A DNA stretch of 27,865 nucleotides from a virus. The notes beneath the pieces are model-generated. The model saw nothing but the letters and a program-made list of their open reading frames with translations. It was not told where the DNA came from and searched no databases. The stretch covers positions 1 to 27,865 of the IMG/VR virus record IMGVR_UViG_3300043787_000055; one strand, written 5' to 3'. Position 1 is the stretch's first letter. Every line of letters begins with the position of its first letter. The translations under genes and the position numbers were made by a program. Of the stretch, positions 38 through 17,307 are shown piece after piece.

Positions 38-280
38 ATGACGTTTCCTTGGGAGCCTGATCCATTTGAACAAATCACGCAACGCATGCGCGAGCTTGAC
101 GTACCGGAGTTTCTGCGCCGCGACGCGAACAATCGCGCACCGTGGTTCGAAAGTCCGCATTCCCACAATAACCGAGTAACTGCTGCCGGAAAACCACTCA
201 GTCCCGTAGCAAGTCCTCCAGCGACGCCCCCTGCATGGGTTCCGCCTTGGGAAGCCAAGAATTTGCCTCGCGACGCATAG
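38..280 (+). CDS. Small hypothetical protein with PWE motifs
   Basis: 80-residue protein of unknown function. The N-terminus reads MTFPWEPDPF, and two further Trp-Pro-type motifs follow (APWFE near residue 35, PPWEAKN near residue 70). The same [M/F]PWE signature recurs at the ends of several other proteins in this window, which is the main reason to believe this ORF is real. A GAAGG ribosome-binding site lies 9 bases before the ATG. Another plus-strand frame ends at 22-24, so it may belong to an operon entering from the left. Its 3' end overlaps the convergent minus-strand gene at 198-506 by about 80 bases, which is unusual; one of the two may be shorter than called. Confidence 0.55.
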   Translation: MTFPWEPDPFEQITQRMRELDVPEFLRRDANNRAPWFESPHSHNNRVTAAGKPLSPVASPPATPPAWVPPWEAKNLPRDA

Positions 281-506
281 CCGCGCGCACGACGCCGGTC
301 ACGCCGCTATCGCGCGCACGCTCAAAAAGCAATATCTCGCCCTCCGCCAACGCCTTGTCCACGTCAGGGTCATCTTTGATCGCGGCCCACTCAATGCCGG
401 CAGCGCGCAACGCCAGCTCGCGGGGCACGCCTTCACTCAGGCGCTGCAAGAGCAGTTCTCGCGGCGTCTGAGGTTCTTTCTTTCCTGGAAAGGTCCACGG
501 AAACAT
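198..506 (-). CDS. Possible small terminase subunit-like protein
   Basis: 102-residue protein. The ATG at 506 was chosen because it forms a TGATG overlap with the stop of the upstream gene, giving translational coupling. The N-terminus is MFPWTFPGKKEP, another instance of the [M/F]PW signature. The rest is helical, with a segment (RELALRAAGI...) that resembles the helix-turn-helix region of small terminase subunits, followed by a short acidic/helical tail (DPDVDKALAEGE). In many podoviruses the small terminase follows the ejection genes, so the position fits. The match is by general pattern only; a plain hypothetical protein is equally possible. No large terminase is visible in the window. 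Confidence 0.5.
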   Translation of the reverse strand: MFPWTFPGKKEPQTPRELLLQRLSEGVPRELALRAAGIEWAAIKDDPDVDKALAEGEILLFERARDSGVTGVVRAAMRREANSWLPKAEPMQGASLEDLLRD

Positions 507-1012
507 CAGGCCTTCTTGGCTTGGCCGATCTGATAAGGCATCCACATGCAGAAGCGTTCGATAGGCAACGGGTCGCCTTCCTGCACCAACGTCACCGAAG
601 TAACGCCGTATGCCGTACCGTTTGGCGTAGTCGCTATGAGATTAACCATGCGGCTGTTCCACACGTACGTAATGATAGCAGCGCACAGTTGGTCACTCGG
701 CTCGTCCTTGATGCGCTCAGTTTCCGCTGGCGAGTACCACACCACACGGCCAATTGTCGGTTCGATCATTTTGTCCTCTTTAAGGTTGCTCGGTTCGTAC
801 TCATAGTCGCGTGCGAGACGCCCGCTTGTCTTCGTCGCACGGTCGATTGCGCGTCCCGCCGGCCCCAGCATTTCGCGGTGCAGGCCTTCGGCAGTCAGGC
901 GTTCCGAGTTTTGCTCCACATGGCCGCGAGCACGCAAAATTGACAATGCCATGTCGCGACTGCCGCCGAGCTGCTCGGTAAGTCGGTCGAGAAGGGGTTG
1001 GTGCTGCGTCAT
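506..1012 (-). CDS. Hypothetical two-part phage protein with internal start
   Basis: 168 residues, start coupled to the ejection gene upstream by an ATGA overlap. It reads as two units. Residues 1-80 are helical (ALSILRARGHVE..LTAEGLHREMLGPAGRAIDRA), resembling small phage proteins that are normally free-standing. Residues 82-168 start at an internal ATG (769) preceded by a strong ribosome-binding site (AAAGAGGACAAA); they are beta-rich, with IGRVVWYSP and a C-terminal WMPYQIGQAKK. The second unit, 506-769, could be made as a separate 87-residue protein. Function is unknown for both. No stop separates the halves, so this is either a fusion or two nested products. Confidence 0.7.
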   Translation of the reverse strand: MTQHQPLLDRLTEQLGGSRDMALSILRARGHVEQNSERLTAEGLHREMLGPAGRAIDRATKTSGRLARDYEYEPSNLKEDKMIEPTIGRVVWYSPAETERIKDEPSDQLCAAIITYVWNSRMVNLIATTPNGTAYGVTSVTLVQEGDPLPIERFCMWMPYQIGQAKKA

Positions 1013-4000
1013 CGCTGTGCAACGATCTGCGGGCCGCCGGACGCGGGAGGCGTCTCGCCGCCCTGTACTGCGCCACTTGCCGCTCGCGCGCCCAAGGCTG
1101 CTGGCACGCCGGATACGCCGCGTCCGCCTCCAATCAAGTCTCGGTAGTTTGGCGGTAGCGAACGCAAGAACATGCGTACGTTACCCCGCAACTGCACCAG
1201 ACTAAAGGCAGCCGACGCCAATCCCGCGCCCGGTAGCGCATGCCCAACAATATGCGCGCCCTCCGCAGCCATCAACGCACTCTCAAAACCTGCTTCGCCT
1301 TTTCGTTTCGTCGCGTACTCCGCGGCGTGGTCTGCCACGTACTGCACGCGTGTCAATTGCTCAGGCGTCAACAACGCACGCGCTACGCTGCTGCTCTTAC
1401 CCTGCAGCATTTCGCGTGCCGCGCTTTGAATGTCAGGAACCGCTTGCGCGCCTTTAAATGCCTCACGCATGTAAAGTTCCTGCATCGCTTGGCGAGGCGC
1501 CGGGTTATTAACTGTAATGCGATTGATGGAGTTTACCGCGTTCAGTGCGGCGTCCTCTCCCGCGTGGCCTACTTTGACGACGTTCAACAGCGCACTGCCG
1601 AGGCTGGTACGGTCGTCTCCCTGCCCAATAGCGCGCAGCATGTCGCTATCTTCAATCGTGGTTTTAAGATCGCGCCACGAAGCATCGCTACGGCGCGCGT
1701 AGTTCAGCATGCGTGGCCCTTCGGGAGTGCCTAACGTATTGACCAGATGTAGTTCCTTTATCCGGTCCCCAAGCTGCGCCGCCTCGTTTAGCCCCTGCGC
1801 AGTCAAACCGTCTGCACGGCGAGCACTGGCTTTTATGCCTGAAGTCACGTTCCGAATTGCTTCGTATTGCTGAAGAGGATTGCGACCGACTGCGTTTTCA
1901 GTTGTTGCGTCAAGTCGTCTCGCAGCGCCCATGATCGCAGGATCTTGGTCCATGCCCGCCCGGGTGGCGGCCGCAACTGCGTTCGTACGGATGCCCGGCG
2001 AGACGGGTGCATTCGCTAATGCATCTTCTACAACGCCATAGCCGTGTTGCGCAGCATTATGCTCTTGCTGTACTGCCGGCGCGATGCGCTGTGAAGCATC
2101 TGCTTCAGTTGCGGCTCCGCCTGGTAGCGATGCCTGTGCGCGCGATGCGCCGGACTGCACAGCATCGCGCATAGCAACTAGCTGTTGCTCGTCCACGTTA
2201 TAGTGACTAGCGACCTGCATCGCCTGCCGTCGCGTGGCCGCCGTCGCGTGCGGATCAGCAAGAATTTCAGCAGCGCCGCCCAGCTCTCGGGCTGCGTTAC
2301 CCCGGACGACGCGGCCTATCAACTGCCCGATACCTTCTCCAAGAATACCGCCGGCTGCACCCGCCGCGCCTGCGATCGTAATGTCAGTCGCGTCACCGCC
2401 TTCCATCGCCTTAACAGTCGCGCTGACGCCCGCACCGCCTGCCACGCGGGCTGCAGCACCTAGCACCGGACGCGCTTCTGGAGCGATGCCGCCGACCGCG
2501 CCATAGCCCGCCGCCTCCGCTGACTTTGCCAAGCTTGGGTCAGTGCCTTGCATCCAATCTTTAAAGGATTGCCCCGCAACACCGCCTGCCGCGCCCGCCA
2601 GCATGGCTCCTGGCACGCCGCCTGCCGCGCCCGCTACGTTCCCAATTACGCCGCCAATCGCAGGCGCATTGCTGACGACAGGCCCCGCGGCGCGTTCAGC
2701 GGGCGTCGCGATACGGTCCCCCGCGGGCGTAGTGCGGCCAGTCCACGGCGCGGCGCCAACATCGGGCAGGCTCGAGACTTGTTCTTTATTCGTTCCTGTA
2801 TCTCGAGTAATTTCCGCCTGATATCGCTGCAGCACCGTTGCCGCAGTCGGCCGCCCCTTGAAAAACATCGGGTTGTTGCGCGCCGCAGCCTCACCAACGA
2901 TCGAACGCGCATCGGCATTCGGATCTGCGTGAAGCAGCGCAGTCGCGCCCGCAGCGCCGAGATTATGCGCTACGTAGAGATTAGCATCGTTGACAGGCAG
3001 GCCTGCGCCCTGCAGCGACGCGGCGTTGGCGGCCGTGAATTTCTCCATCGCCTGCGTTTGCTGCTGCGGCGTGGCATCCTTTGCGCGGGCCGGCGCACCC
3101 GCCGGCTTATTGGCTGCCCACGTGCTGTCAATCATCTGGAACGCGCCGGACGCGCTGGAGCCCGGCGTCGTCGCGGCCCACGGGTTCTTGCTCCCGCCGC
3201 TCTCAATTCGCTGCGTGCTCATGAGATAGCCCGGCGAACTACCTGGGGGCGGCGTAAAACTGACCGGCTGCCCGGCAATCGTAACCGGCGCGGGAGGCGA
3301 GCCCCCGCCTGCGGGAGAGGAACCAGCTGGGGAAGTAGGGGCCGGACCCGCAGGCGGAGTGCCGTTCGGAGGAACAGCGGGAGCGACGCTAGCTTGCGGG
3401 TCCGATGTTTGCAAGGGCGCGCGCGGCGGCTGAGCACCCTGCACACTAGACCCCTGCGGAAAGAACACGCGCTGATTGCCCATGACCGTACTGGGGTGCG
3501 CATTGTACCCGTTAATCGCCTCGATACGCCCTTGCTCATGAAAGGGCGCCAATTCGTTCTTAAGCGCGGCGTCAAGCGGGATTTCGTCAAGCGGCTTGCC
3601 GCCGCGGCCCGCGTACGTCATTGCGCCGCCGAGCCGCCCTTTGGCCTCGGTAGACGCGTAATCGTACATGTGTTGTGAGAGCTGCTTCAGGCCCGCGATA
3701 GTATCGCGTTCCATGCGCGGGGCGCCGGGTGCGTCGGCCTTCTTACCGCTGTTCAGCCAGTTCTGCAGCGCACCGTATTCATTAGCCGCCTTGTTGAGCG
3801 TGGTTTCGACGACGCCTTGAGACATGCCGAACATCTTCGTGAAACCGATGCTACCCGAAGCCGCCGATTTCTCCGCAACGTCGCGCATCGTCCCCAATTC
3901 ATCCTTGATCGCCGTCAGGCCCGCCGACGACCTGTAATTGTCGTCGTTGCTGAGCGTGTCACGCACCTTATTCATCATGTTGTACTGATTTAGCGCACCC

Positions 4001-5100
4001 TTCACATTTTCGTCATTGGTGTACGACTGAAACGTCTTCTCACGCTCGGCGTTCCACGCGCTCCAGCCGCCATCCTTTGACGACATGCCGTACTTGTCCG
4101 TACGAACCGAACCATTCGGCGCCGCAACGCCGGGTTGCCCGTCAAGCGAGCGTATCTTGACGTTATTGCCGCCAAACGCGGGCTCATTCGTGTTGCCCAG
4201 CGTCACGTTCGACGCGATGCTCTCCCCGACTTCCTTCGGCGCCGGCTGATCGAACGTCGTCATGTTGTTGAGCTTCTGCACGATTTGCGCGTGCAACTGC
4301 TGCGCCTGCGCAAACATGGCACCGTGCTTCGCCACGATATCTTGCCAGTCGGAGGCCTTCTCCGGAATGTTAGGTAGCCCCATGGCCGTAATCGCCTGGC
4401 GATCTTCAGGCGTCAGGCTGCGCACTGCAGCCGCGTACACGCCTTGGTTACCCTGAGCCGCGCTGAGCTTGGTTACCGCGGTGTCGGCCGCTTTCAGCTT
4501 GGCGCCCGCACCATCCAGCGCCGCACCCGCGAAATCCTGAACCCAATCGCCCTTGCCGCGCGCCTTCAGCATATTCGCTGCGGTAAAGTCTCCGCTTTTG
4601 TACTGATCAAGCAGATAGTTGTCGATCGTATCGCCCGTCATCGCGGGGCCTTGCAGCGACTTCGGCACGCCGAAATTCGCCGCCTGCTTCTGAATATCGG
4701 TCTGCTGCTGCGCCCGCTGTTGCAAATCCTGCAGCTGCTTGGCTCCCTCGCCGGACACGAAGTCGCGCGCCTTCTGCGCGCCTTCGGGATTGAAGAACTG
4801 TAAAATGGGGTTACTGGCTATCGCGTTGGCGCGAGTGATACGCTCTTGCGTCCTGGCGGTTGCTTGCTCCAGCGCGGTCTGCGCAGGATCTGGCGGCTTG
4901 TAATCCGAGCCGCCCAGAAACTTGTTGATGGCAGACCCAAACGAAGCGGGCGGCATGCCGGTACCTGCGCCGCTATCTCCCACTCCAGCCGGCTCCGCCT
5001 GTGGCGCACCACCGCCAAAGCTCAAAGCGCTCCCGAAGTCCGTATTGCCGCCGGCCATCGTTCCAGGGGGCGTGCTACCGCCGAATGCACTGTCGTCCAT
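1009..5100 (-). CDS. Giant internal virion/ejection protein with lytic transglycosylase domain
   Basis: 1363-residue virion protein, probably ejected into the cell envelope at infection, comparable in role to T7 gp16 or similar podoviral ejection proteins. The start follows an AGGAG site 10 bases upstream. Order: Gly/Pro-rich N-terminus; helical Gln/Ala-rich region to about residue 560; Pro/Ser/Gly linker (about 565-615); a lysozyme-like/SLT domain (about 620-770) with RIESGG carrying the likely catalytic Glu633, GAFQMI and an AHNLGAAGA segment; then a long Ala/Gly-rich hydrophobic part (about 800-920) that could insert in membranes; and a helical C-terminal region. It ends in an ATGA overlap with the next gene. 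The domain would locally cut peptidoglycan during DNA entry. The ejection role is inferred from size, composition and domain. Confidence 0.88.
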   Translation of the reverse strand: MDDSAFGGSTPPGTMAGGNTDFGSALSFGGGAPQAEPAGVGDSGAGTGMPPASFGSAINKFLGGSDYKPPDPAQTALEQATARTQERITRANAIASNPILQFFNPEGAQKARDFVSGEGAKQLQDLQQRAQQQTDIQKQAANFGVPKSLQGPAMTGDTIDNYLLDQYKSGDFTAANMLKARGKGDWVQDFAGAALDGAGAKLKAADTAVTKLSAAQGNQGVYAAAVRSLTPEDRQAITAMGLPNIPEKASDWQDIVAKHGAMFAQAQQLHAQIVQKLNNMTTFDQPAPKEVGESIASNVTLGNTNEPAFGGNNVKIRSLDGQPGVAAPNGSVRTDKYGMSSKDGGWSAWNAEREKTFQSYTNDENVKGALNQYNMMNKVRDTLSNDDNYRSSAGLTAIKDELGTMRDVAEKSAASGSIGFTKMFGMSQGVVETTLNKAANEYGALQNWLNSGKKADAPGAPRMERDTIAGLKQLSQHMYDYASTEAKGRLGGAMTYAGRGGKPLDEIPLDAALKNELAPFHEQGRIEAINGYNAHPSTVMGNQRVFFPQGSSVQGAQPPRAPLQTSDPQASVAPAVPPNGTPPAGPAPTSPAGSSPAGGGSPPAPVTIAGQPVSFTPPPGSSPGYLMSTQRIESGGSKNPWAATTPGSSASGAFQMIDSTWAANKPAGAPARAKDATPQQQTQAMEKFTAANAASLQGAGLPVNDANLYVAHNLGAAGATALLHADPNADARSIVGEAAARNNPMFFKGRPTAATVLQRYQAEITRDTGTNKEQVSSLPDVGAAPWTGRTTPAGDRIATPAERAAGPVVSNAPAIGGVIGNVAGAAGGVPGAMLAGAAGGVAGQSFKDWMQGTDPSLAKSAEAAGYGAVGGIAPEARPVLGAAARVAGGAGVSATVKAMEGGDATDITIAGAAGAAGGILGEGIGQLIGRVVRGNAARELGGAAEILADPHATAATRRQAMQVASHYNVDEQQLVAMRDAVQSGASRAQASLPGGAATEADASQRIAPAVQQEHNAAQHGYGVVEDALANAPVSPGIRTNAVAAATRAGMDQDPAIMGAARRLDATTENAVGRNPLQQYEAIRNVTSGIKASARRADGLTAQGLNEAAQLGDRIKELHLVNTLGTPEGPRMLNYARRSDASWRDLKTTIEDSDMLRAIGQGDDRTSLGSALLNVVKVGHAGEDAALNAVNSINRITVNNPAPRQAMQELYMREAFKGAQAVPDIQSAAREMLQGKSSSVARALLTPEQLTRVQYVADHAAEYATKRKGEAGFESALMAAEGAHIVGHALPGAGLASAAFSLVQLRGNVRMFLRSLPPNYRDLIGGGRGVSGVPAALGARAASGAVQGGETPPASGGPQIVAQR

Positions 5101-5152
5101 GATGCCGGGCTCCTATTCGGAACCGAGGCTAGCACGTCAGACGGCAACTTGG

Positions 5153-5260
5153 CTAGGTGGGCTGCGGCGCCACGCCGGTAACGAGCAGGATGACAGCGAT
5201 GATCACAACGACCGCCAGCCCCGCCCAAATCGCGTAGTCTCGTTTCTGATCAGGCGTCAT
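5153..5260 (-). CDS. 35-residue single-pass membrane protein
   Basis: Tiny ORF with the N-terminus MTPDQKRDYAIW followed by one hydrophobic helix (about residues 11-30, rich in V, I, L, A) and a short tail, APQPT. The predicted topology is N-in with a charged amino end. Its start lies 4 bases downstream of the stop of the neighbouring membrane gene, and an internal virion gene follows 52 bases downstream. Position beside other tiny membrane proteins and upstream of virion genes would suit a holin or pinholin, but no sequence feature proves lysis function. Confidence 0.6.
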   Translation of the reverse strand: MTPDQKRDYAIWAGLAVVVIIAVILLVTGVAPQPT

Positions 5261-5263
5261 AGC

Positions 5264-5443
5264 TCAGCGCCCGCCTTGCAGGATAAAGCCGAAATCGTGC
5301 CACCCGAGCAAGAACAGCAAGAACCACAAAAATATGCTGGTCAAGTACGGGCCGCGCGTACCGCCCCAACCCCACCAGCCGACGCCCGCGTACGCAAGCA
5401 ACCACATAATCATCAAGATCCAAAATAGCAGGCCGATCGGCAT
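5264..5443 (-). CDS. 59-residue two-helix membrane protein
   Basis: The start at 5443 was preferred because a GGAGG ribosome-binding site lies 9 bases upstream; a longer reading frame exists but lacks such a site. There are two hydrophobic segments, roughly residues 2-18 (IGLLFWILMIMWLLAYAG) and 33-48 (LTSIFLWFLLFLLGW), separated by a Gly/Trp-rich turn. The very Trp- and Phe-rich composition marks it as an integral membrane protein. It is one of three consecutive membrane ORFs here, so a holin-like role is conceivable. No family recognised. Confidence 0.65.
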   Translation of the reverse strand: MPIGLLFWILMIMWLLAYAGVGWWGWGGTRGPYLTSIFLWFLLFLLGWHDFGFILQGGR

Positions 5444-5497
5444 AGCGCAGTCCTCCAATGAACCACGGTAAACGCTGGGGTAAGACAAAGGTTCCGG

Positions 5498-5620
5498 CTA
5501 CGGCCGCCCAAGCCACGAAAGCCAGTAACCGAAAACAACGCAAATGCCAGCGATAATCAACAAGCCAGCAACGTGCTCCAGGCGCTCAAACGCCAGCATA
5601 CCCCCGCCGAAGTCGTTCAC
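5498..5620 (-). CDS. 40-residue single-pass membrane protein
   Basis: GTG-start ORF whose start overlaps the stop of the preceding secreted-protein gene (GTGA). It has an amphipathic N-terminus (MNDFGGGMLAFERLEHV), one membrane helix (about residues 17-36, AGLLIIAGICVVFGYWLSWL) and the end GRP. The stop-start overlap is the strongest evidence that it is translated. Unknown function; it may act in lysis or superinfection exclusion together with its neighbours. Confidence 0.6.
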   Translation of the reverse strand: MNDFGGGMLAFERLEHVAGLLIIAGICVVFGYWLSWLGRP

Positions 5621-5829
5621 GGCGCTTCCTTCGAGCAGCGCTTGATCCAGTCCGATCGCGCGGGCTCGCTAGCCGGCGCCAACTTGATGCAGTCCCGCGT
5701 GAAGTCGGCGCGCGTGTAAGGCTGCTGTTGTGGAGCAGGATCGGCGATGCGACCCATGCCGCTCATGTTTTGCGCAAAGGCCGGTGTGGCGTGCGTCAGG
5801 ATCAGGGCGAAGGCGACGGCGTATCGCAT
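5617..5829 (-). CDS. Small exported (periplasmic) protein
   Basis: 70 residues. The start at 5829 is supported by an AGGAG site 9 bases upstream; an earlier in-frame ATG (5850) would place that site inside the gene. Residues 1-19 form a signal peptide (basic MRY, hydrophobic AVAFALIL, Ala-X-Ala cleavage near TPAFA/QN). The mature part is about 50 residues, Pro/Gln-rich, with two cysteines (DCIKLAP, KRCSKEAP) that could pair in the periplasm. The preceding gene ends just upstream. Unknown family; it could assist lysis or block secondary infection. Confidence 0.65.
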   Translation of the reverse strand: MRYAVAFALILTHATPAFAQNMSGMGRIADPAPQQQPYTRADFTRDCIKLAPASEPARSDWIKRCSKEAP

Positions 5830-5854
5830 GCAGATTGCTCCTAAGTTCATGAGT

Positions 5855-5873
5855 GGCCGGGCTTTCCCCGGCC
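5855..5873. terminator. GC-rich hairpin, possible terminator
   Basis: Perfect inverted repeat GGCCGGG-CTTTC-CCCGGCC between two minus-strand genes. There is no clear U-tract on either side, so it may instead slow transcription or protect RNA ends rather than end transcripts. Confidence 0.4.
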
Positions 5874-5878
5874 TGGTC

Positions 5879-6031
5879 TCATGTTGATTTCTCCGTCAAG
5901 GCTTCTCGTACTGCTTCAAACGTCGTATCGTAACTGTCATACGCTGTCGGCGCGGGTTCGTCAATAGTGCGTTCGTGGTGCTGGTGGGCGCGGCGGCGAG
6001 CGCGCAAATCTTTTGAGGACAATGCAATCAT
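5879..6031 (-). CDS. 50-residue hypothetical protein
   Basis: The start overlaps the stop of the upstream gene as ATGA. The sequence is highly charged: a basic, His-rich amino half (KDLRARRRAHQHHER) followed by an acidic half (DEPAPTAYDSYDTTFEAVREALTEK) that is likely helical. The gene ends just before the 5855-5873 hairpin. No recognisable family. Confidence 0.55.
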   Translation of the reverse strand: MIALSSKDLRARRRAHQHHERTIDEPAPTAYDSYDTTFEAVREALTEKST

Positions 6032-6273
6032 CGGAAATCGTTGGGTTCATATGCGATGCAGATGCGGTGATTTCTAAACCATCCCCATTTCATGCGACCC
6101 ATCTTCACGCGTACGACAGGTTTGAAGTCCTCAACGCGACGCCCCCGTCGCTCGTCGTACCCGGCAAGACGTAAAGTAGCGCCGTCCTCGCTGATGAAAG
6201 TTACTACGTGGTCCACGAGACCGCCCACTTGATAGCGCACGCGCACCCCTGGAACGATGTACGGATTAACCAT
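6028..6273 (-). CDS. 81-residue hypothetical protein
   Basis: The start at 6273 was chosen for the GGAG site 9 bases upstream and the 8-base overlap with the preceding gene's stop; the longer open frame (to 6441) is arginine-rich shadow sequence. The N-terminus MVNPYIVPGVRVRYQVGG and following alternating hydrophobic pattern suggest a small beta-barrel (SH3- or KOW-like) fold; the C-terminus is basic and aromatic (MKWGWFRNHR). No family recognised, function unknown. Confidence 0.6.
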   Translation of the reverse strand: MVNPYIVPGVRVRYQVGGLVDHVVTFISEDGATLRLAGYDERRGRRVEDFKPVVRVKMGRMKWGWFRNHRICIAYEPNDFR

Positions 6274-6457
6274 CGCTCTTGCTCCAGTGCATCCAGGCCG
6301 TCGAATTGACGCTGTAGAAGAAGCGCTGCGGCGACCCGTTCCACGTGATCCACACGCCCTGCGGCGTGGTTTCGACGACATCGGCAATCGAGCCTGGCGC
6401 CATGGGGTTTTCGACGGTATCGCCGGCTTTGAGCGCGGCAAACTCCTTGATGTTCAC
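6266..6457 (-). CDS. 63-residue hypothetical protein
   Basis: GTG start at 6457, overlapping the upstream stop (GTGA) and preceded by a GGAG site at 8 bases. The pattern NIKEFAALKAGDTVENP, then VWITWNGSPQRFFY, indicates a compact beta-rich domain similar in style to small phage proteins that bind other proteins or nucleic acid. It ends WMHWSKSDG. Unknown function. Confidence 0.6.
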   Translation of the reverse strand: MNIKEFAALKAGDTVENPMAPGSIADVVETTPQGVWITWNGSPQRFFYSVNSTAWMHWSKSDG

Positions 6458-6600
6458 TGGCGCAGCTCCTTTGCGATCGCAAGCTTCGCCTTCCCGCGCG
6501 CGGAGCTGGCACCCGTATTGAGTTTGGTCCGTCGCGTATACTTGGACGAGCAATAGCTACAACGAGAGAGGCGCTTAAACGCCGCGTGGAGTAGTTTCAT
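6454..6600 (-). CDS. 48-residue basic protein with Cys pair
   Basis: Very basic small protein (MKLLHAAFKRLSRC...). Residues 14-17 form a CSYC pair that could hold a metal only if joined with another subunit, since just two cysteines are present. The C-terminal half is Lys/Arg/Ala-rich and likely helical. Start and stop overlap the neighbouring genes (ATGA and GTGA). Unknown; nucleic-acid binding is a guess from charge. Confidence 0.55.
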   Translation of the reverse strand: MKLLHAAFKRLSRCSYCSSKYTRRTKLNTGASSARGKAKLAIAKELRQ

Positions 6601-6677
6601 AATCCGCCTGCCAATGCCAGCGCAATAAACAGCGCCATGTTGAGAATTACCCACAACTCGAAAAGGTGCCAAATCAC
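6597..6677 (-). CDS. 26-residue membrane peptide
   Basis: GTG start at 6677 overlaps the upstream stop, and its own stop overlaps the next start (ATGA). The peptide (MIWHLFELWVILNM then ALFIALALAGGL) is hydrophobic almost throughout, enough for one membrane pass. Double overlap in a continuous operon supports it despite its size. Confidence 0.5.
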   Translation of the reverse strand: MIWHLFELWVILNMALFIALALAGGL

Positions 6678-7214: not shown

Positions 7215-7216
7215 TT

Positions 7217-7537: not shown

Positions 7538-7540
7538 GTT

Positions 7541-7596: not shown

Positions 7597-7677
7597 GCTT
7601 TAAATTCTGCAGGCGGCGTTTGCATCCGCTTCTGACGCATGTTGCGTTTGTTCTACGGCATAAACTACTGCAGAAAC

Positions 7678-7884: not shown

Positions 7885-7889
7885 TTTGT

Positions 7890-7942: not shown

Positions 7943-8376
7943 GCCCTCTTTTCAATTTTCTTCGAATAGCGCCAAGCCGTATCCGTGTCCATGCGCAGCA
8001 ACCAGGCCAGCTTGCCAATCTCGTACTTGTCGCAGATAGCGTCCCAGTGCGCTACGGCAGCCCGCCCGTTGATCGGCGATGCGGCGATGGCAATCCGTAG
8101 CGCGCTATCCGCTGGCTCACGTGCAGCCGCTAAGACGCGTTCCTTCCGCTTCGTGCGTTCGAAGTCCGTACGTGCTAGCCGTCCGATCATGATCAGGTCG
8201 TCGATCACGCTCGCGAGCAGCCCGCCGCAAAGCTCCGCCAAGTCCATCGGCAAACCCGCCTGTCTGCATTGCGTCGTCAACGTCGGGCTCGCTATCCGTA
8301 CGAGCGGCCTTATCCGCTCAGCGTGCGTGCTAGCCGTCTCTACTGCGATTTGAGGCAGTCTTAAAGCCGGTATCAT
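7939..8376 (-). CDS. Possible DNA-binding regulator
   Basis: 145 residues, transcribed divergently from the replication genes. The body is Ala/Arg-rich and helical; the C-terminal end, KYEIGKLAWLLRMDTDTAWRYSKKIEKR, looks like a helix-turn-helix unit with a basic end. A TATACT hexamer lies only 13 bases before the ATG on the minus strand (plus about 8390-8395), which would give an almost leaderless message as seen for some phage repressors. The location at a divergent control region with operator-like repeats fits a repressor or regulator, but there is no recognised family and the assignment is inference. Confidence 0.6.
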   Translation of the reverse strand: MIPALRLPQIAVETASTHAERIRPLVRIASPTLTTQCRQAGLPMDLAELCGGLLASVIDDLIMIGRLARTDFERTKRKERVLAAAREPADSALRIAIAASPINGRAAVAHWDAICDKYEIGKLAWLLRMDTDTAWRYSKKIEKRA

Positions 8377-8541
8377 CCGTGTGCCTTAGTATACATTTTG
8401 TGCCTACCCCGGTTCTACCTTCCCAAGTGAAGCCCCATCGTAGCAGTGCGGTGCTGAACCCTCAAGGTGTAAGCGCCGCCCATTTTCGTAGATAGAGGGC
8501 GCATTCCAAGGGAATAATTATGGCCTAATAAACAAATATTT

Positions 8542-8624
8542 CGTATATTGTACGGATAACGTATATTGATCAAATAGCATACATTAATGCATACGGATCA
8601 CATAAATGTGATTAGCATATATTG
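8542..8624. repeat. Iteron-like AT-rich repeats
   Basis: CGTATATTG occurs at 8542-8550 and 8560-8568 exactly 18 bp apart; a related GCATACATTAATGC lies at 8577-8590, and GCATATATTG at 8615-8624. The near-regular spacing (18, 17, then 38 bp) resembles iterons or tandem operators. Confidence 0.6.
8597..8612. promoter_or_regulatory. Perfect palindrome, candidate operator
   Basis: ATCACAT-AA-ATGTGAT: 7-bp arms with a 2-bp centre, lying within the iteron-like array 17 bases before the -35 box at 8629. A dimeric regulator, perhaps the product of the 7939-8376 gene, could bind here. Confidence 0.5.
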
Positions 8625-8628
8625 TAGC

Positions 8629-8683
8629 TTGACTAATGTATGACAAAGGCGTTTATGGCGGGTACCAACAAACGCTGGAGAGC
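8629..8683 (+). promoter_or_regulatory. Promoter and GCTGGAGAGC leader for the replication genes
   Basis: TTGACT at 8629-8634, 17-bp spacer, TTTATG at 8652-8657, then the shared leader GCTGGAGAGC at 8674-8683 and ATG at 8689. The -10 is weak, so an activator or different spacing may be involved. Confidence 0.5.
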
Positions 8684-8688
8684 AGAAG

Positions 8689-9567
8689 ATGACCAAACAG
8701 CCTGCCGATCTCAATGACAGCCTCGACGATCTTCTGGACGCGCCAGCCGGCGAAGTTCGCACGGCCATTCATGCTCCCATTGATTACACGCCCAAGGATT
8801 TTTCGGAACCATGCTCGAAGTGCCGCGGGACCGGCCGCTTCGTCAGCTACTCAGGTCGCACGCTCGGTCCGTGCTTCGCCTGCAAAGGCGCCGGCAAGCA
8901 CACGTTCAAGACTTCGCCCGAAGCTCGCGCCAAGGCGCGTATCTCGAAAGCCGACCGGAAAGCACAAGAGGCTCTTGAGTGGGTGGAGCAGCACGCAGCC
9001 GAAATGGCGTGGGTCAATAATGCTGCGGCCCGCGGCTTTGAGTTCGCCGTGTCGCTGCGGGCTGCTCTGACGCAATACCACAGCCTCACGGACGGGCAGC
9101 TCGCCGCTGTTCAGAAACTAATGGCCCGCGATGCCGAGCGGGCTGCAGAACGCGCCGCGACCGCCCCCGTCGTCGAGACGGCCGGCGTTGACCGCCTCAA
9201 GGCTGCTTTCGATTTCGCGATCTCCAAAGCCGCCGAGAAGGGCCGCGGCTTTCGCAATCCGCGCATCACGATCGGCGGTGCTGTCATCAGCCCGGCTGGT
9301 GCAAACTCCAAGAACCCGGGCGCGCTTTACGTTAAGTCCGGCGGCGAATACCTTGGCAAGATCGCATCGGGCCGGTTTTTCGCCGCCCGCGAATGCACCC
9401 CGGAACAAGAGAAGAAGATCTTGGCTTTCGTCGCCGACCCGGAGGCCGCTGCCAAGGCGTACGGGCAAGAAACCGGCGTCTGCTGCATTTGCAACGCCAC
9501 CCTGACGAACAAGGAAAGCATCGAAGCCGGCATAGGCCCGATCTGCGGCTCCAGGTTCGGGTGGTGA
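8689..9567 (+). CDS. Zinc-finger protein with DnaJ-type CxxCxGxG and DUF6011-like end
   Basis: 292 residues. Two DnaJ-like CxxCxGxG motifs near residues 43-65 (CSKCRGTG, CFACKGAG) should bind one zinc ion. A middle helical region, rich in Ala and charged residues, spans about 75-170. The C-terminus has CCICNATLTNKESIEAGIGP then C, matching the DUF6011 pattern of Cys-X2-Cys, Leu-Thr, GIGP-X-C. The protein resembles zinc-binding phage proteins near replication genes; a nucleic-acid-binding role is likely but not known. First gene of the rightward replication operon, directly under the 8629 promoter. Confidence 0.75.
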   Translation: MTKQPADLNDSLDDLLDAPAGEVRTAIHAPIDYTPKDFSEPCSKCRGTGRFVSYSGRTLGPCFACKGAGKHTFKTSPEARAKARISKADRKAQEALEWVEQHAAEMAWVNNAAARGFEFAVSLRAALTQYHSLTDGQLAAVQKLMARDAERAAERAATAPVVETAGVDRLKAAFDFAISKAAEKGRGFRNPRITIGGAVISPAGANSKNPGALYVKSGGEYLGKIASGRFFAARECTPEQEKKILAFVADPEAAAKAYGQETGVCCICNATLTNKESIEAGIGPICGSRFGW

Positions 9568-9568
9568 C

Positions 9569-9721
9569 ATGCACCAGGCAATAGGCCTCGGCCTCCTGAT
9601 CTACCTCATTGCGTTCGCATTCGGCGAGCGCACTGCCCGCGTCGTTGTTGGTGCTGTACTGATCATTGGAGTATTGGCGTTCGCGTACGTCATGCTCCGA
9701 CTTATGGAAGGAACGATCTAA
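9569..9721 (+). CDS. 50-residue two-helix membrane protein
   Basis: Not large enough for usual gene calling, but it fits between its neighbours exactly: its ATG follows the previous stop by one base and its TAA shares the A of the next ATG. Helix 1 covers about residues 4-18 (AIGLGLLIYLIAFAF), a charged GERTAR turn follows, and helix 2 covers about 25-44 (VVVGAVLIIGVLAFAYVML). Holin-like in shape; function unknown. Confidence 0.65.
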   Translation: MHQAIGLGLLIYLIAFAFGERTARVVVGAVLIIGVLAFAYVMLRLMEGTI

Positions 9722-10221
9722 TGCCAAGCAAAGAAGGCTGGACGCACGAATGCGACCACGAAAAGATCACGCTAGGCCGCAAGCAATACCGCAACATGGA
9801 AGAGTGGACGCGGCCTTGCGGCGTATGCGGTAACCCGTTTTCCATTTTTGTGCGTACGAATGCCACGGCGATCAATTCGTCATTCGGCTTGAAGACATGC
9901 AAGGAACACCGCGGCCAAAAGCTCGGCACGGCGGGTACCGCTGTCTTCGAGCAGCACGAGGAACTTGAACGCCTGCGCGAGTGGGAAGAAGTATTCCACC
10001 GCGCGCTCAGGCTCGTGCAGAAGAAACTCGGCCCCCACGCAACGATGTCCAAGATGGACGAACATATCGCGTTGCTGATCGAGGCGGCTGACGAAGTTTT
10101 CACCGAGGCTACCAGGATGCGCGCCGAGCTCGCGAAATACGAGCTGCAACCGGCTATGGTAGAGGCACAAAAGGTAACCGCTATGAATGGTGCCTTGCCA
10201 AACAAGATGCCTTGGGAATAA
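9721..10221 (+). CDS. Zn-binding hypothetical protein ending in KMPWE
   Basis: 166 residues. An N-terminal His/Cys region (HECDHEK, CGVCGNPF, CKEH between residues 10 and 62) could bind zinc. A coiled-coil-like helical region from about 78 onward (EELERLREWEEVFHRAL...) follows. The last five residues are KMPWE, the tag shared with the primase-helicase and others. Coupled to the membrane protein upstream by a one-base overlap and followed by a hairpin. Function unknown. Confidence 0.7.
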   Translation: MPSKEGWTHECDHEKITLGRKQYRNMEEWTRPCGVCGNPFSIFVRTNATAINSSFGLKTCKEHRGQKLGTAGTAVFEQHEELERLREWEEVFHRALRLVQKKLGPHATMSKMDEHIALLIEAADEVFTEATRMRAELAKYELQPAMVEAQKVTAMNGALPNKMPWE

Positions 10222-10226
10222 ATAAA

Positions 10227-10260
10227 AGTCCCGGCGCAGGGCTCAATCTGCGCCGGGGCT
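10227..10260. terminator. Strong hairpin between the Zn protein and the primase
   Basis: Stem CCCGGCGCA / TGCGCCGGG (10230-10238 with 10249-10257), extended by three more pairs including a G-U, loop of 10. The plus-strand side has no U-tract, while the minus-strand side is followed by ACTTTTATTTATT. It may attenuate the rightward transcript or stop antisense transcription. Confidence 0.5.
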
Positions 10261-10289
10261 GATAGACTACACTCTCGATCGGGACGAGA

Positions 10290-12383
10290 ATGCTGTTCAT
10301 AGATAGCCAAGAAAAGCTGCGGCTGCAAGATGCAGGTACGCAACCATTTCCTGCCACAATTCAAGAATTTTGGAACGCCGCAGTACAGCGCGGCTTGTTC
10401 CCGCTGTCGATCGCGCGGGGCTCGAAGGCCCCTATAGGAGAAGGCTGGAATGCTTGGACCAATCCCATTTCACATCCTGGCGCAGGCAGCGTTGGCTTAC
10501 GTTGCGGCGATGGCGGTCTTACCGCCTTTGACGTTGATAAATCCGACCCCGATAGCGCAGCCCGTTTGCTGGGCGCCTTTCGGAGTGTACTTGGTCCGAA
10601 TACGGCTATTCGCTGGGGGCGAAGACCACGTTTTCTTATACCGTTCTACCTAACCGACGCGCCCGTACAAGGGCGTACGTTCACATTTCCGGACGGCGAC
10701 AAGCTTCAGCTCATGGGCGGACAATTCGTCGCCTTTGGCCCCCACAAAGACACCGGAGAAAATTATGCCTGGGAAAATTGGGATGCAGAGTGGCCGCGTC
10801 TCAACACAACACAATTGCAGGACGTACTGTCTCGTGTGCCTACGATGGCGGGAACGTCTCTGCGTTTTGGGGCGGATCACGAAACGGCAACGCCTGACGA
10901 ACTCGCGGAAGCAATCCCGCAAACACAAGACGAATGGCAAGCCGGCCGCGACGCCGCTTGCCGATACCTCGGGCTGCTCAAGCAAGAGCTGACCGGGAAG
11001 CACGAGGGCCGCGGTTCTACGATCTTTGGTATCGTCGGCGTACTGAAGTTCGCCGAGCTGCACGGCATGTGCACGCGCGACGAAATCGAAAACGCGATCA
11101 TTGAAGCCGGCCATCATCTTGACGAAGGCCTGGGCGGTCGTACGCTTCGTGAAGAGATCGAACGTCACAACGATTTGCCGGTGTTACGCGGCAACCTGAT
11201 CATGGGCGCCATCATCGCGCGCCGAACGATGCTGCAAGGGCTGAATGATGCGCAAACCCTGCCGATGCTGGTTTCGCGTACAGGCTTTGAAATCTCGCTG
11301 GAGGACAGTACCGATGAATTACCGTGGCTGCTATACCAACGTATCTTATGCGGCGAGGTCCATTTTTTTACAGGGCACAGTGGCGCCGGAAAGTCTACCG
11401 TCGTCAGTGACATGGCTGTACACCTTCTCACCGGGCGTTCATGGCTCGATAGTGATGTTGAACGTACCGACGGTCATGTTTTGTGGGTGGCCGCTGAAGA
11501 CGATTACAGCACAGAACGACGCGTGCGGCACTTACTCAGACAAGAACCAAACGCCTCCGATTTGGCAGCTCGATTTCACTTAATCCGCGGCGTAGCCGAA
11601 CCGCTGGCCTTCGAGTTGCAATGCATCGCACAAGTCCAGGCCATGGCTGCCATGGGCAAGCGTGTAGATCTGATCGTGGTGGACACGTGGGGCGCCTCGG
11701 GGCTGTGCTTTGCCGACAATGATACCGAAAAAGTTCTCAAGGCCATGTTTGTCCTGAAAAACATCGCCAAGCGCACGGGCGCCGCTGAGATCGTGACCGA
11801 CCATTTGCCGCTCGGAAACGAGGACGCATGGCAGAAGGGTAACGGCGCCAAATCAGGGCAGGCCGGGTTTCTGTATCGCGTCACCGCCGGCAAGGAAGAT
11901 CAGGTATCGATCGATTGCGGCAAGGCACGCGGCGCCCCGAAGGCGAGAAGCTATGCCGGCAAAATCATTTCCGAGAACTATGGGCAGGACAGTAAGGGAC
12001 GTACGACGACCGTGAACGTGTTTAAGCGTCAGGCGCCGAAGGAGCAGCGCGAACAAAGCGCCGTGATGCACCTGGCCGCTGCCTTGCCTGGCGCCGTCAC
12101 GGGCGGCATGAATGCCTTGCGTGACGGCCAAATTGTATCCTTTGACAGCGTAGCCGGCGAGATCGGCCACAGCGTCAAGGGCGAAAAGCCCGAATACGTC
12201 GTCAACCGCGACGCCGCCCAAAGAATGTTCGACAAAGACGGTTTGAAACTCTTGATTGACACGGGACACTTACGTACACTGCATGGGCAGCCGTTCCTGT
12301 TCGTGTTCGCGCCGGGTGGCGTGGCGAAACCGGAGCTGTTGATGCCTTGGGCTTTTATGGGAGTGAAGATGCCATGGGAGTAA
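10290..12383 (+). CDS. Prim-Pol primase / RepA-like helicase fusion
   Basis: 697-residue replication protein. The N-terminal domain (about 20-185) is a bifunctional primase-polymerase type: FDVD near residues 80-83 supplies the metal-binding aspartates, and LMGGQFVAFGPHKDTG (about 138-155) matches the conserved GG-H block. A linker follows, then a RecA-fold AAA_25/RepA-like helicase: Walker A GHSGAGKS at about 361-368, Walker B VDLIVVDTWG at about 459-468, and DHLPLG as a sensor-like segment. It should prime and unwind DNA at the phage fork. The C-terminus carries two copies of the PW signature (LLMPWAFMGVKMPWE), the last forming the final residues and overlapping the next start codon. Confidence 0.88.
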   Translation: MLFIDSQEKLRLQDAGTQPFPATIQEFWNAAVQRGLFPLSIARGSKAPIGEGWNAWTNPISHPGAGSVGLRCGDGGLTAFDVDKSDPDSAARLLGAFRSVLGPNTAIRWGRRPRFLIPFYLTDAPVQGRTFTFPDGDKLQLMGGQFVAFGPHKDTGENYAWENWDAEWPRLNTTQLQDVLSRVPTMAGTSLRFGADHETATPDELAEAIPQTQDEWQAGRDAACRYLGLLKQELTGKHEGRGSTIFGIVGVLKFAELHGMCTRDEIENAIIEAGHHLDEGLGGRTLREEIERHNDLPVLRGNLIMGAIIARRTMLQGLNDAQTLPMLVSRTGFEISLEDSTDELPWLLYQRILCGEVHFFTGHSGAGKSTVVSDMAVHLLTGRSWLDSDVERTDGHVLWVAAEDDYSTERRVRHLLRQEPNASDLAARFHLIRGVAEPLAFELQCIAQVQAMAAMGKRVDLIVVDTWGASGLCFADNDTEKVLKAMFVLKNIAKRTGAAEIVTDHLPLGNEDAWQKGNGAKSGQAGFLYRVTAGKEDQVSIDCGKARGAPKARSYAGKIISENYGQDSKGRTTTVNVFKRQAPKEQREQSAVMHLAAALPGAVTGGMNALRDGQIVSFDSVAGEIGHSVKGEKPEYVVNRDAAQRMFDKDGLKLLIDTGHLRTLHGQPFLFVFAPGGVAKPELLMPWAFMGVKMPWE
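12365..12383 (+). repeat. 19-bp direct repeat, copy 1
   Basis: GAAGATGCCATGGGAGTAA encodes the primase end KMPWE plus stop and, in another frame, the start of the next gene (ATGGGAGTA). An identical copy lies 205 bp downstream at 12570-12588. Confidence 0.9.
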
Positions 12384-12565
12384 CACATACGTACGCTTTG
12401 TTGCCAGTAAGCAAAGCAACATACGACGAGATCGCGGCTACGCTTAGAGCTGCAGAATACGATCATGTTTTTGGCGATGACGGCGAGATTGACATGCACG
12501 GCATCGCGCTTGTAATCGAGAAGCCGCCAGCTCCGATCGACCCTACAAAATCGTCACTAAAATGA
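12374..12565 (+). CDS. 63-residue hypothetical protein
   Basis: Starts inside the primase PWE codons (CC-ATG-GGA) with a GGAG about 11 bases ahead. MGVTHTYALLPVSKATYDEIAATLRAAEYDHVF, then DGEIDMHGIAL: an alpha/beta small protein of the kind common in phage early regions. Its ending (PPAPIDPTKSSLK) overlaps an eight-codon ORF encoding MNAKMPWE. Function unknown. Confidence 0.65.
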   Translation: MGVTHTYALLPVSKATYDEIAATLRAAEYDHVFGDDGEIDMHGIALVIEKPPAPIDPTKSSLK

Positions 12566-12588
12566 ATGCGAAGATGCCATGGGAGTAA
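12562..12588 (+). CDS. Eight-residue mini-ORF MNAKMPWE
   Basis: ATG AAT GCG AAG ATG CCA TGG GAG TAA, starting within the ATGA overlap of the previous stop. It consists of little more than the PWE tag. It may be a relic of a truncated gene end, a duplicated coupling cassette for the following gene, or a real peptide. Confidence 0.3.
   Translation: MNAKMPWE
12570..12588 (+). repeat. 19-bp direct repeat, copy 2
   Basis: Identical to 12365-12383. It again places KMPWE-stop over the start codon of the following gene (ATGGGAGTA at 12579). A diverged relative lies at 10203-10221. Confidence 0.9.
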
Positions 12589-12854
12589 GTTTTCCGTACT
12601 ATGGCGAAGATTTCTGCCTCGTGCACGGACGCGAAGCGATGCGCTCGCAAATGGGCAACCCGATTGCATTCTGCGAAGCTTGCGAAGAGGACAAAACAGT
12701 ACCTAGGGGACAGAACGGGGTTTGCGCATGCGGTCGCGAGACGATGGACGGCGTACGCTGTAAGTACGGCGCCACGCATCAGCCGCTCTTGCGCATGCCG
12801 TGGTATCAGCCGAAACGAGAACCTGAGAAGGAGAAATTTCCGTGGGAAAATTAG
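12579..12854 (+). CDS. Cys-rich hypothetical protein ending in KFPWEN
   Basis: 91 residues. Four or more cysteines in paired arrangement (CLVHG, CEACEED, CACGRET, VRCKYG) suggest one zinc-binding site. The end contains two signature motifs, LRMPWYQPKREP and KFPWEN, before the stop. Its last codons contain the GTG start of the next gene. Function unknown; the double tag mirrors the primase C-terminus. Confidence 0.65.
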   Translation: MGVSFPYYGEDFCLVHGREAMRSQMGNPIAFCEACEEDKTVPRGQNGVCACGRETMDGVRCKYGATHQPLLRMPWYQPKREPEKEKFPWEN

Positions 12855-13138
12855 AAGATCTAACGGCTGAGATTTTCGAGCTAGAGCAGCAGCTATCTGC
12901 CAAGTGCGAAGAGCGGCACGCGCTGTACATTTCTGAATTACCCTGGAAAATAGGCGATATCGTTCGCATGACGAGAAGCTGTTACGGCTGTGCTGCCGGC
13001 AGTCTTTGGAAGATTGTCGGTTTCTACGATCCTAGTGCGGGTTGGGCGCGAGCAGTCAGCCAGAAAAAAGACGGCTCATGGGGCGTACGAAAGAAGATAC
13101 TATTCGGTAATTTTGAAGTCGTCGACAGTGGCATCTGA
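12842..13138 (+). CDS. Hypothetical protein, coiled coil plus beta domain
   Basis: 98 residues with a GTG start embedded in the upstream PWE codons (CC-GTG-GGA). GKLEDLTAEIFELEQQLSAKCEE is a coiled coil, then SELPWKIGDIVRM leads into a beta-rich part with SLWKIVGFYD, resembling small regulatory barrels. It overlaps both its neighbours. No family recognised. Confidence 0.6.
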   Translation: MGKLEDLTAEIFELEQQLSAKCEERHALYISELPWKIGDIVRMTRSCYGCAAGSLWKIVGFYDPSAGWARAVSQKKDGSWGVRKKILFGNFEVVDSGI

Positions 13139-13454
13139 GCTAGCGAAGCGTTTCCCCTGGGAACCGGCACCGCTTCCTGAAACCGTGGCGTTGCTGCAAC
13201 GTGATTTCGCGTACGCCGTACGCATGACCGCCGTAGTCGTGCACTCGAACCGGCCAGAGTTTCAAATTTGCGTGAACACGGCGCGGGGCCAGATCGTGCC
13301 GCGCGGGGAGTGCAGATTTACGGACGGCAGCACGATCGAGCTGCAGGACGTTGGCATGCCGCAGGTTGGCTGCTCCGAAATGTCAGTACGCGAGCTTATG
13401 GACCATGTTTGGAATATTGCAAGAAATCTCGAATTGACGCTTGACAGTCTCTAA
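13128..13454 (+). CDS. 108-residue protein with N-terminal KRFPWEP
   Basis: GTG start at 13128 overlaps the previous stop; the longer frame to 12990 lies inside the neighbour gene. The N-terminus is MASELAKRFPWEPAPLPE, then a beta-rich body (TAVVVHSNRPEFQICV, SMSV-like C-terminal helix RELMDHVWNIARNLELTLDSL). The PWE signature at the amino end matches that of 38-280. Function unknown. Confidence 0.65.
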   Translation: MASELAKRFPWEPAPLPETVALLQRDFAYAVRMTAVVVHSNRPEFQICVNTARGQIVPRGECRFTDGSTIELQDVGMPQVGCSEMSVRELMDHVWNIARNLELTLDSL

Positions 13455-13493
13455 GAACGTGCTATGTACGTACATCAACAACCGCTGGAGAGC
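13441..13493 (+). promoter_or_regulatory. Sigma-70-like promoter with palindrome and leader
   Basis: TTGACA 13441-13446, 16 bp, TGC-TATGTA with the -10 at 13463-13468, overlapping the palindrome ATGTACGTACAT (13464-13475), then the GCTGGAGAGC leader (13484-13493) before ATG 13497. Nearly the same element as at 7890-7942. Confidence 0.7.
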
Positions 13494-13496
13494 GCC

Positions 13497-13646
13497 ATGC
13501 CCCTAACCAAGTCCCAACTTTTCGCCCACGCCCACGCAATCACCCGCATGAAGAGCGTCACGCACTTCGGCGGCTACCAGAAGGCCTTCGCCTTGGTGCT
13601 GCGCCAATGCTACGCCGAGAAGCTGGTCCACGGGTGGAACGTCTGA
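13497..13646 (+). CDS. 49-residue hypothetical protein
   Basis: Start set by the GCTGGAGAGC leader. MPLTKSQLFAHAHAITRMK, then GGYQKAFALVLRQCYAEKL: helical and similar in style to small phage proteins containing F..AH and YQ.AF.L.L. First gene under the 13441 promoter. Function unknown. Confidence 0.65.
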   Translation: MPLTKSQLFAHAHAITRMKSVTHFGGYQKAFALVLRQCYAEKLVHGWNV

Positions 13647-13846
13647 TGACCGCGTATGTCGCAGCATGGTTACTCGTTTACTCATGGACAGATTGTGGGA
13701 GTGGCTGGTCATGCGTACGCGTAGAGAACGTCGTACCCGGCATCGCTACAGAAGACGATTGTCAGGCACTTGGAAAAAATTTGACCGCTAACGATAAAGA
13801 CAGACCAAAGTTTAAATGCGTATCTTACGCGAGTGCGGGCCGATGA
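13646..13846 (+). CDS. 66-residue Cys-rich protein with hydrophobic N-terminus
   Basis: Start at 13646 shares a TGATG overlap with the previous gene. Hydrophobic MTAYVAAWLLVYSW could act as a short export or anchor segment, followed by cysteines at DCGSGWSC, DDCQALG and KCVSY, suggesting disulfide bonds outside the cytoplasm. Ends in an ATGA overlap with the next gene. Function unknown. Confidence 0.6.
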   Translation: MTAYVAAWLLVYSWTDCGSGWSCVRVENVVPGIATEDDCQALGKNLTANDKDRPKFKCVSYASAGR

Positions 13847-13974
13847 CAACCGTTTGGGTCTACTTCCACGGTGACGGCTCCGTCACCATCTTCGCAACCG
13901 AGCTCGCGGCGCTCCGCTGGTTTTCCGTGTACGATCTGGAAGGCGTCGCCTTCGAACATAAGGTGGTATCGTGA
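13843..13974 (+). CDS. 43-residue hypothetical protein
   Basis: MTTVWVYFHGDGSVTIFATELAA, then WFSVYDLEGVAFEHKVVS. Beta-strand pattern. Linked by ATGA and GTGA overlaps to the genes on either side, which supports translation despite the size. No family recognised. Confidence 0.55.
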   Translation: MTTVWVYFHGDGSVTIFATELAALRWFSVYDLEGVAFEHKVVS

Positions 13975-14231
13975 ATACTTTGAAAAAAGTTGAGAAATAC
14001 TCTGAGGCAGAGCGAGAAAATATTCGCGCCTGCGCCCGAAATCCAGGTCCAAGTTTTCGAGACGATGCAGTCAAATCGCATCACAGCATGCTTTCTCGTG
14101 TTCGTTTAAAACGCACTCAATTGCCGTACGGCGACGTATATTTCGAGTTCATGCGAGAGATTGACAGTCTTTGTCCGGATTATGGATTGAGGGCATCGTA
14201 TCGTCGACGAATTGTAAGCGGAGAAAGCTAG
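13971..14231 (+). CDS. 86-residue basic hypothetical protein
   Basis: GTG start overlapping the upstream stop. MNTLKKVEKYSEAERENIRACARN, then basic helical sequence with KSHHSMLSRVRLKRTQLP and the end RASYRRRIVSGES. High Arg/Lys content suggests nucleic-acid contact. The next ATG follows directly after its TAG. Confidence 0.6.
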   Translation: MNTLKKVEKYSEAERENIRACARNPGPSFRDDAVKSHHSMLSRVRLKRTQLPYGDVYFEFMREIDSLCPDYGLRASYRRRIVSGES

Positions 14232-14303
14232 ATGACCCTTGACCTCAAGATTTCCTTGGCACTAGCATTCGTCGGCGCCTTCATTGTGGTGTGTCTGCTG
14301 TGA
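14232..14303 (+). CDS. 23-residue membrane peptide
   Basis: MTLDLKISLALAFVGAFIVV then CLL: a single hydrophobic helix. ATG directly follows the previous stop, and its own stop overlaps the next GTG start (GTGA). Tight packing on both sides makes it a credible gene. Confidence 0.5.
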   Translation: MTLDLKISLALAFVGAFIVVCLL

Positions 14304-14602
14304 GCTGGTTTCCCTGGGTGCAGGCCCCCGCGCGATCGAACATGACGACTGGCGAGCTGATTGACTGGTTGCGTTACCGCGCAATTGACTTCGGCATGCC
14401 GTCGCAGTTTATCGATTGCGTGGGCTACCTGAATGATCTCGACGGCGCGGACGCGGAAATCGAAACGTTAAAGGCAGATCTGGAAGAAGCTCTTGAGGAA
14501 CGCGATGCGCTTCGAGACGCATTGAGAGGCCTGCTTGCCAGTCCAGATGACCAGATAAAACATGAAATTGCGCAAGGCGTGTTAGATGACCTTCGTCCCT
14601 AG
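14300..14602 (+). CDS. 100-residue coiled-coil protein with N-terminal WFPW
   Basis: GTG start at 14300 chosen for the GTGA overlap. N-terminus MSWFPWVQAPARSN carries the PW signature. TTGELIDWLRYRAIDFGMP then a long acidic coiled coil (about residues 52-82, ADAEIETLKADLEEALEERDAL). Overlaps the start of the helicase gene by 17 bases. Unknown function; perhaps an adaptor for the helicase. Confidence 0.65.
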   Translation: MSWFPWVQAPARSNMTTGELIDWLRYRAIDFGMPSQFIDCVGYLNDLDGADAEIETLKADLEEALEERDALRDALRGLLASPDDQIKHEIAQGVLDDLRP

Positions 14603-17295: not shown

Positions 17296-17307
17296 AGAAA
17301 GACCAGC

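Follow-up and report, generated by a model that had tools for sequence, protein, structure and literature searches.

The tip of bacterial SSB (SSB-Ct, D-D-Phi-P-F) interacts with RecO, PriA, RecG, ExoI and other proteins and requires its terminal carboxylate, while binding to the sliding clamp follows a consensus of the QLSLF type. Among phages, the SSB tip NDYPPF of HK620 is required to bind Sak4 (PMC5928155), and the tail of T7 gp2.5 contacts polymerase and primase-helicase, according to work cited in PMC5686142. The T7 sequences, as read here, end DTDF (gp4) and DGDF (gp2.5).

The DNA examined here, a phage contig of 27.9 kb (the whole stretch analyzed, referred to as the window), has its virion genes largely on the minus strand. 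At least seven otherwise unrelated proteins of this phage were found to possess, on their loose ends, a tag of three to five letters (…M/F-Pro-Trp-Glu/Gln). We interpret Phi-P-W-(E/Q/D) as a short linear docking motif which is carried on disordered ends of phage replication proteins and constitutes a variant of the SSB-type tail, and give this reading a probability of roughly 0.7.

As with SSB-Ct, a short Phi-P-aromatic motif closes a disordered tail ([F/M/Y]PW[E/Q...]) and is found on SSBs, those of other phages in this case, with homologous phage SSBs and helicases bearing either tip. The tag differs in having Trp and not Phe, Glu/Gln after it, Lys before it and no acidic run; neither the acidic residues nor the C-terminal Phe carboxylate of SSB-Ct are present and some tags have 1–5 trailing residues. 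It may also lie at the N-terminus or stop a few residues short of the end, and it extends to helicases, exonucleases, terminase and small proteins. The T7 pair is similar in that a replicative primase-helicase and an SSB have a short aromatic tip, and the KMPWE-bearing helicases of marine phages are gp4 homologs. However, the T7 tips are acidic with Phe, and at least five further proteins of the window phage are tagged. As the window SSB ends NPFGPR, helicase and SSB do not have a common tip in this phage (KMPWE/NPFGPR), nor do they in marine phages G001–G003 (KMPWE/DDLPF). The HK620 tip is likewise a Phi-P-aromatic phage SSB tip, and KMPWE-tailed DUF669 SSBs adjoin Sak4 genes (L102, L173), although the motif differs and no Sak4 was recognized in the window. 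Sliding-clamp motifs are also short replisome motifs at protein ends, yet the consensus Q-x-x-[L/M]-x-F or Gln-x-x-Leu-Phe was absent from every tag when the tag sequences were read. An earlier note on this DNA had likened the tag to SSB tails or clamp-binding motifs; the first likeness is supported as far as sequence can tell, and the second is not.

Tagged proteins of the window

All eight Pro-Trp termini listed in the earlier note were recovered at their positions when the sequence was re-read. The primase/polymerase-AAA_25 replicative helicase (697 aa, 10290..12383, plus strand), with Prim-Pol (PF09250) and AAA_25 (PF13481) domains, carries the C-terminal tag LLMPWAFMGVKMPWE (VKMPWE; KMPWE at 12366–12380). 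Its final 22 residues (676–697) fall below pLDDT 50 in a model which is poor overall (pTM 0.33) and which thus indicates merely that the tail lacks confident modeling. Also on the plus strand, a 166-aa protein with no assigned function (9721..10221) has the C-terminus NKMPWE (KMPWE at 10204–10218), and a 91-aa zinc-ribbon-like protein (12579..12854) ends RMPWYQ...EKFPWEN, with two PW copies. N-terminal tags are found on a 108-aa alpha/beta protein (13128..13454, plus strand; disordered tag KRFPWEP, PW at 13155–13160), on a 100-aa protein (14300..14602, plus strand; MSWFPWV) and on a 102-aa protein (201..506, minus strand; MFPWTF), the last two having Phi-P-W alone, without Glu. Assignment of the 102-aa protein as a small terminase was dropped, there being no PHROG or family match. 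An 80-aa ORF (38..280, plus strand) begins MTFPWEP and ends WVPPWEAKNLPRDA.

Several other replication proteins of the window lack the tag. The Gp2.5/Enc34-type SSB (18794..19576, plus strand; phrog_7011, E 8.8e-19) has the tip SAPPANPFGPR, containing P-F and not P-W, and the family A DNA polymerase (19600..21510, plus strand; phrog_17, E 4.1e-61) is untagged. A DEAH-type helicase at 14586–16196 and a DUF2800 exonuclease-like protein at 17275–18246 are also encoded, and the 16744 protein likewise has no tag. The ORF at 16193–16594 ends NFNPWGPR and overlaps the ORF at 16579–16728, which begins MGPSLDRKDSTKGYTLDNVQLV; together they would read like a single HNH-type nuclease broken by a frame change, in which case the NPWGPR end would be an artifact. 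At 26593–27231 a GIY-YIG-like ORF lies on the plus strand amid the minus-strand virion genes and is possibly a homing endonuclease insertion.

Conservation among related phages

Orthologs were compared in 57 families drawn from the window and 10 near-complete relatives. A terminal [F/M/Y]PW was present in 25 of 26 copies of the helicase from 27 related phage contigs, with tails such as KMPWE, KMPWQ, SFPWQ, SYPWQ, SMPWQ, KMPWN and similar. The surrounding tail changes and the linker is variable; what stays constant is PW, the preceding hydrophobic residue and, mostly, Glu/Gln. The family of the 166-aa protein has PW near the C-terminus in 13/13 orthologs, the bodies of which are 24–67% identical. 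C-terminal PW was seen in 9/9 zinc-ribbon proteins of the whole-genome set and in most of the 27 relatives, often doubled (MPWEIEKPKEEFPWE, MPWEAEPRKAMPWD).

The N-terminal tags are similarly kept. P10 and W11 of the alpha/beta protein are invariant and followed by Glu/Asp in 13/13 orthologs; the model of this protein has an N-terminal block with a mean pLDDT of 52 (disordered) and an alpha/beta domain mostly above 90, for which a fold search gave no significant match. Orthologs of the 14300–14602 protein begin MAWLPW, MMAWLPW or MMFPW, the family starting with SWFPW or AWLPW, and N-terminal PW was found in 9 of the 11 orthologs of the 201–506 protein (e.g., MFPWLF, MLPWLN). The large terminase of the relatives (phrog_2, E 1.3e-16) mostly starts MLPWE, MNFPW or MNYPW. 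With the terminase included, at least six families besides the helicase have PW at a constant end. The 38–280 ORF is present in five clade genomes. It overlaps 201–506 in antisense, an arrangement which is similar in several relatives with orthologs of both. Its C-terminal PPW/PPWE is weak evidence because the 3′ part of the ORF is antisense to 201–506, and the other strand may account for PPW.

No tag occurs on the DEAH helicase, exonuclease or polymerase of the clade, the polymerase C-termini being without it in the orthologs. Clade SSB tips (NPFGPR, NPFAPR, QPFPPR, GPFG, AWPSR, TWPQR) contain Pro-Phe or Trp-Pro instead of PW. The SSB at 18794–19576 thus belongs to a group with a conserved tip of its own, NPF[G/A]PR or WP-x-R, which is basic and not acidic at the end.

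The per-position frequencies drew on 614 non-redundant ORFs, those of the window together with 27 relatives of its helicase. In this clade C-terminal Pro-Trp (W in the last five residues) had a frequency of 0.0176 per position versus 0.0014 internally, a difference of about 12-fold. Within a family, terminal PW was present almost throughout or else absent altogether, with zero in 43 of the 57 families. Family-conserved PW sites numbered 9 per 2,280 residues at a distance of 20 residues or fewer from an end versus 12 per 11,434 internally (p = 0.004), a count in which the true N-terminal site of the alpha/beta protein was scored as internal. Random Pro-Trp pairs are ruled out by the position and family statistics and by the controls across the sequence collection given below. 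The two ways in which the earlier note considered that it could be wrong, absence of the motif from homologs and a frequency equal to that of random pairs at protein ends, are therefore both contradicted, and the tag is real and far above chance.

Direct repeat and overlapping start codons

An exact 19-bp direct repeat, GAAGATGCCATGGGAGTAA, is located at 12365–12383 and 12570–12588, flanking the gene at 12374–12565. The second copy lies within an 8-codon ORF, MNAKMPWE (12562..12588, plus strand), which the earlier note had counted as a tagged protein. That claim is not retained, as the ORF is produced by the repeat: given its position inside the repeat, and since gene 12374–12565 has no counterpart at that place in the near relative L002, the ORF is probably a copy of the end of the helicase gene rather than a protein in its own right. 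Gene 12374–12565 looks like one gained together with the duplication of the tag DNA. A repeat of this kind would fit non-functional tags of shared local ancestry, propagated as duplicates of a short DNA cassette. Against this, codons and flanks are not the same in the remaining tags, conservation is at the peptide level, and the tag is kept both in orthologs of 24–67% identity and in unrelated phages (those outside the clade span about 30–64% GC), which requires selection. We consider non-functional cassette spread to be extremely improbable.

At three of the four C-terminal tags in the window the start of the next gene lies inside the Pro-Trp codons, CCNTGG (ATG 12374, ATG 12579 and GTG 12842; Pro codon CCA/CCG), and the same overlap, with GTG, was seen in relatives L020 and L027. 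Among clade helicase tags, the NTG opens an ORF of 40 codons or more in 9/11 and the Pro codon is CCG or CCA in 10/11. Pro-Trp ends could therefore be a by-product of overlapping genes, persisting since the following gene starts within CCATGG/CCGTGG. However, this cannot apply to the N-terminal tags, and the NTG is not a next-gene start at every tag, opening the next gene in only 2/13 members of the 166-aa protein family, 0/9 terminases and 30 of the 119 matches listed for the wider KMPWE set described below, where the Pro third bases are T52, C30, A27 and G10. It also leaves unexplained why K/M should be preferred ahead of the Pro-Trp and E/Q behind it, and why replication proteins are chosen, and is thus very unlikely to be the cause; in the overlap, the same codons are best regarded as being put to a second use. 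The earlier note had argued from the varying proline codons that selection acts on the peptide. Selection on the peptide is supported, but the codon argument is flawed at the three sites above, where variation is not neutral evidence because CCA/CCG supplies the ATG/GTG of the next gene. A ribosome-binding site within TGGGAG was also considered and rejected, being an impossible role at N-terminal tags, with many C-terminal tags having no adjacent downstream start.

Distribution of the tag in other phages

A collection of 2.9 million viral contigs was scanned for K-M-P-W-E-stop, with permuted and charge-swapped controls. At least 119 stretches had KMPWE-stop compared with 16 for permuted KMWPE and 29 for charge-swapped KMPWK. 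Among the matches listed, KMPWE closed ORFs of at least 60 aa in 92% (TAA/TAG stop) and 88% (TGA) of cases, compared with 12% for KMWPE and 14% for KMPWK. KMPWQ, which was intended as a control, proved to be enriched in real ORFs (65% of its matches close ORFs this long), indicating that Gln is tolerated; the sequences support E or Q, and not K, as residues accepted after Trp. The string is unlikely to be a feature of bacterial proteins, an option which was rejected as KMPWE-stop closes long ORFs in merely 18% of bacterial-genome matches, much like the controls. A search of a literature library found no paper containing the string KMPWE or tying MPWE to phage.

The KMPWE carriers are unrelated to one another and, among the matches listed, are mostly DNA-replication and recombination proteins, including about 84 primase-helicases of the T7 gp4 type (E about 1e-17 in phmmer against T7 gp4). 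Tagged SSBs belong to three unrelated families, DUF669, the Enc34/Gp2.5 type (PF10991) and, in one instance, DUF3127, and there are exonucleases ending KMPWE, KMPWQ or MPWEM. Seven diverged DUF669 SSBs, chosen for having the tail, have three invariant body residues besides KMPWE. An exception outside replication is a 133-aa HExxH-bearing protein ending FPWEKMPWE. Short HExxH phage proteins with this doubled end were observed at L066 (3991–4389) and at 12 similar loci.

Phosphoribosyltransferase-like proteins (L453, L458, L461, L464, L465, and L472) have VKFPWE or IKFPWE at the end, a source of terminal FPWE with no relation to the tag. KFPWE-stop is a mixed set in which such proteins are included, and the general motif was restricted to KMPW[E/Q]. 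It could be argued that Pro-Trp-Glu ends are parts of folded domains and alike by structural coincidence, given that the phosphoribosyltransferase-like proteins have independently come to end WVKFPWE and that a GNAT-like protein has DLNPWEG within its fold. The tags themselves lie in modeled disorder, on linkers which vary in length and sequence and on carriers which differ in fold, making such a coincidence highly improbable.

Exchange with SSB-type tips

Homologs of the KMPWE helicases in named phages, mostly flavophages, end in EVPF (Cellulophaga phi10:1, Nekkels_1), DDVPF (Tenacibaculum JQ), DDFPF (vB_RanS_PJN03) or EIPF (elemoA). DUF3127 SSBs similarly end DLPF, ELPF or GLPF, with L171 having DKMPWE instead. 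The helicase and SSB tips of named flavophages include DEVPF, EDDVPF and DDLPF. With gp4-type helicases and DUF3127 SSBs alike bearing one tip or the other, KMPWE occupies the exact place of SSB-type D/E-Phi-P-F tips. Both tip types can be found in one phage. The KMPWE helicase of G001–G003 is adjoined by a small SSB-like protein ending ADDLPF, and in G015 KMPWE closes a DUF669-like protein and DDIPF closes a DNA helicase. This suggests either a pair of partners or a single partner bound with two affinities.

The terminal location of the tag, and the many small early proteins which carry it, would also suit a stability or processing signal (degron or anti-degron) recognized by a host protease or chaperone and not a dock on the replisome. 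However, the tag is found at either end of proteins and is not strictly terminal, most carriers from outside the clade function in DNA replication, and the tag is exchanged with D/E-Phi-P-F tips. We therefore judge such a signal to be quite unlikely.

Proposed docking role and partner

Conservation of the tag over bodies of 24–67% identity and its recurrence on proteins of unrelated phages support selection on the peptide and an SSB-like docking role, as do its exchange with D/E-Phi-P-F tips and the acceptance of E or Q, but not K, after Trp. In such a role, comparable to that of the T7 gp4 and gp2.5 tails, the Pro-aromatic pair would be accommodated by a pocket of the shared partner, with specificity added by the acidic or amide residue. 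Differently folded proteins would be gathered at replicating DNA through the tag, at whichever disordered end it lies, and doubled tags on some proteins would provide avidity. In the clade of the window, packaging (terminase) and small early proteins would be recruited as well. That the tag binds, that its carriers have a partner in common and what this partner does are inferred; a replisome component, encoded by the host or by the phage itself, is the most likely candidate. The earlier note had proposed docking onto a common partner such as a replisome or host protein, and the recurrence of the tag in unrelated phages on their helicases, SSBs and exonucleases is in line with this; its presence on the large terminase of the relatives goes beyond replication.

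A match to family A polymerase (PF00476) was not found in G001–G005, G010 and G020, possibly fragments, and none was evident among the G003 proteins; the window does have one. As several carriers show no such polymerase, it is unsupported as the partner for all, and a single phage-encoded partner common to every carrier is unlikely. A host replisome protein, or several partners, may serve instead. A wider proposal, which we regard as possible yet doubtful, is that Phi-P-W-(E/Q) is an undescribed docking code parallel to SSB-Ct which is used by many unrelated phages, engages one conserved pocket, perhaps on a host replisome protein, to bring in helicases, SSBs and exonucleases, together with terminase and small early proteins in the clade of the window, and forms a hub for replication and packaging.

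Implications

A shared short tag of this kind is a handle on which phage proteins cooperate. It places proteins with no assigned function alongside the replication machinery in the absence of sequence homology, and the tag peptide can serve as bait for finding the partner. The findings suggest the evolution in phages of a second tip code alongside the classical SSB tail. Were the partner to be encoded by the host, a conserved host surface exploited by many phages would be exposed, and if the hub reading is true, replication and packaging would have one hub in common.
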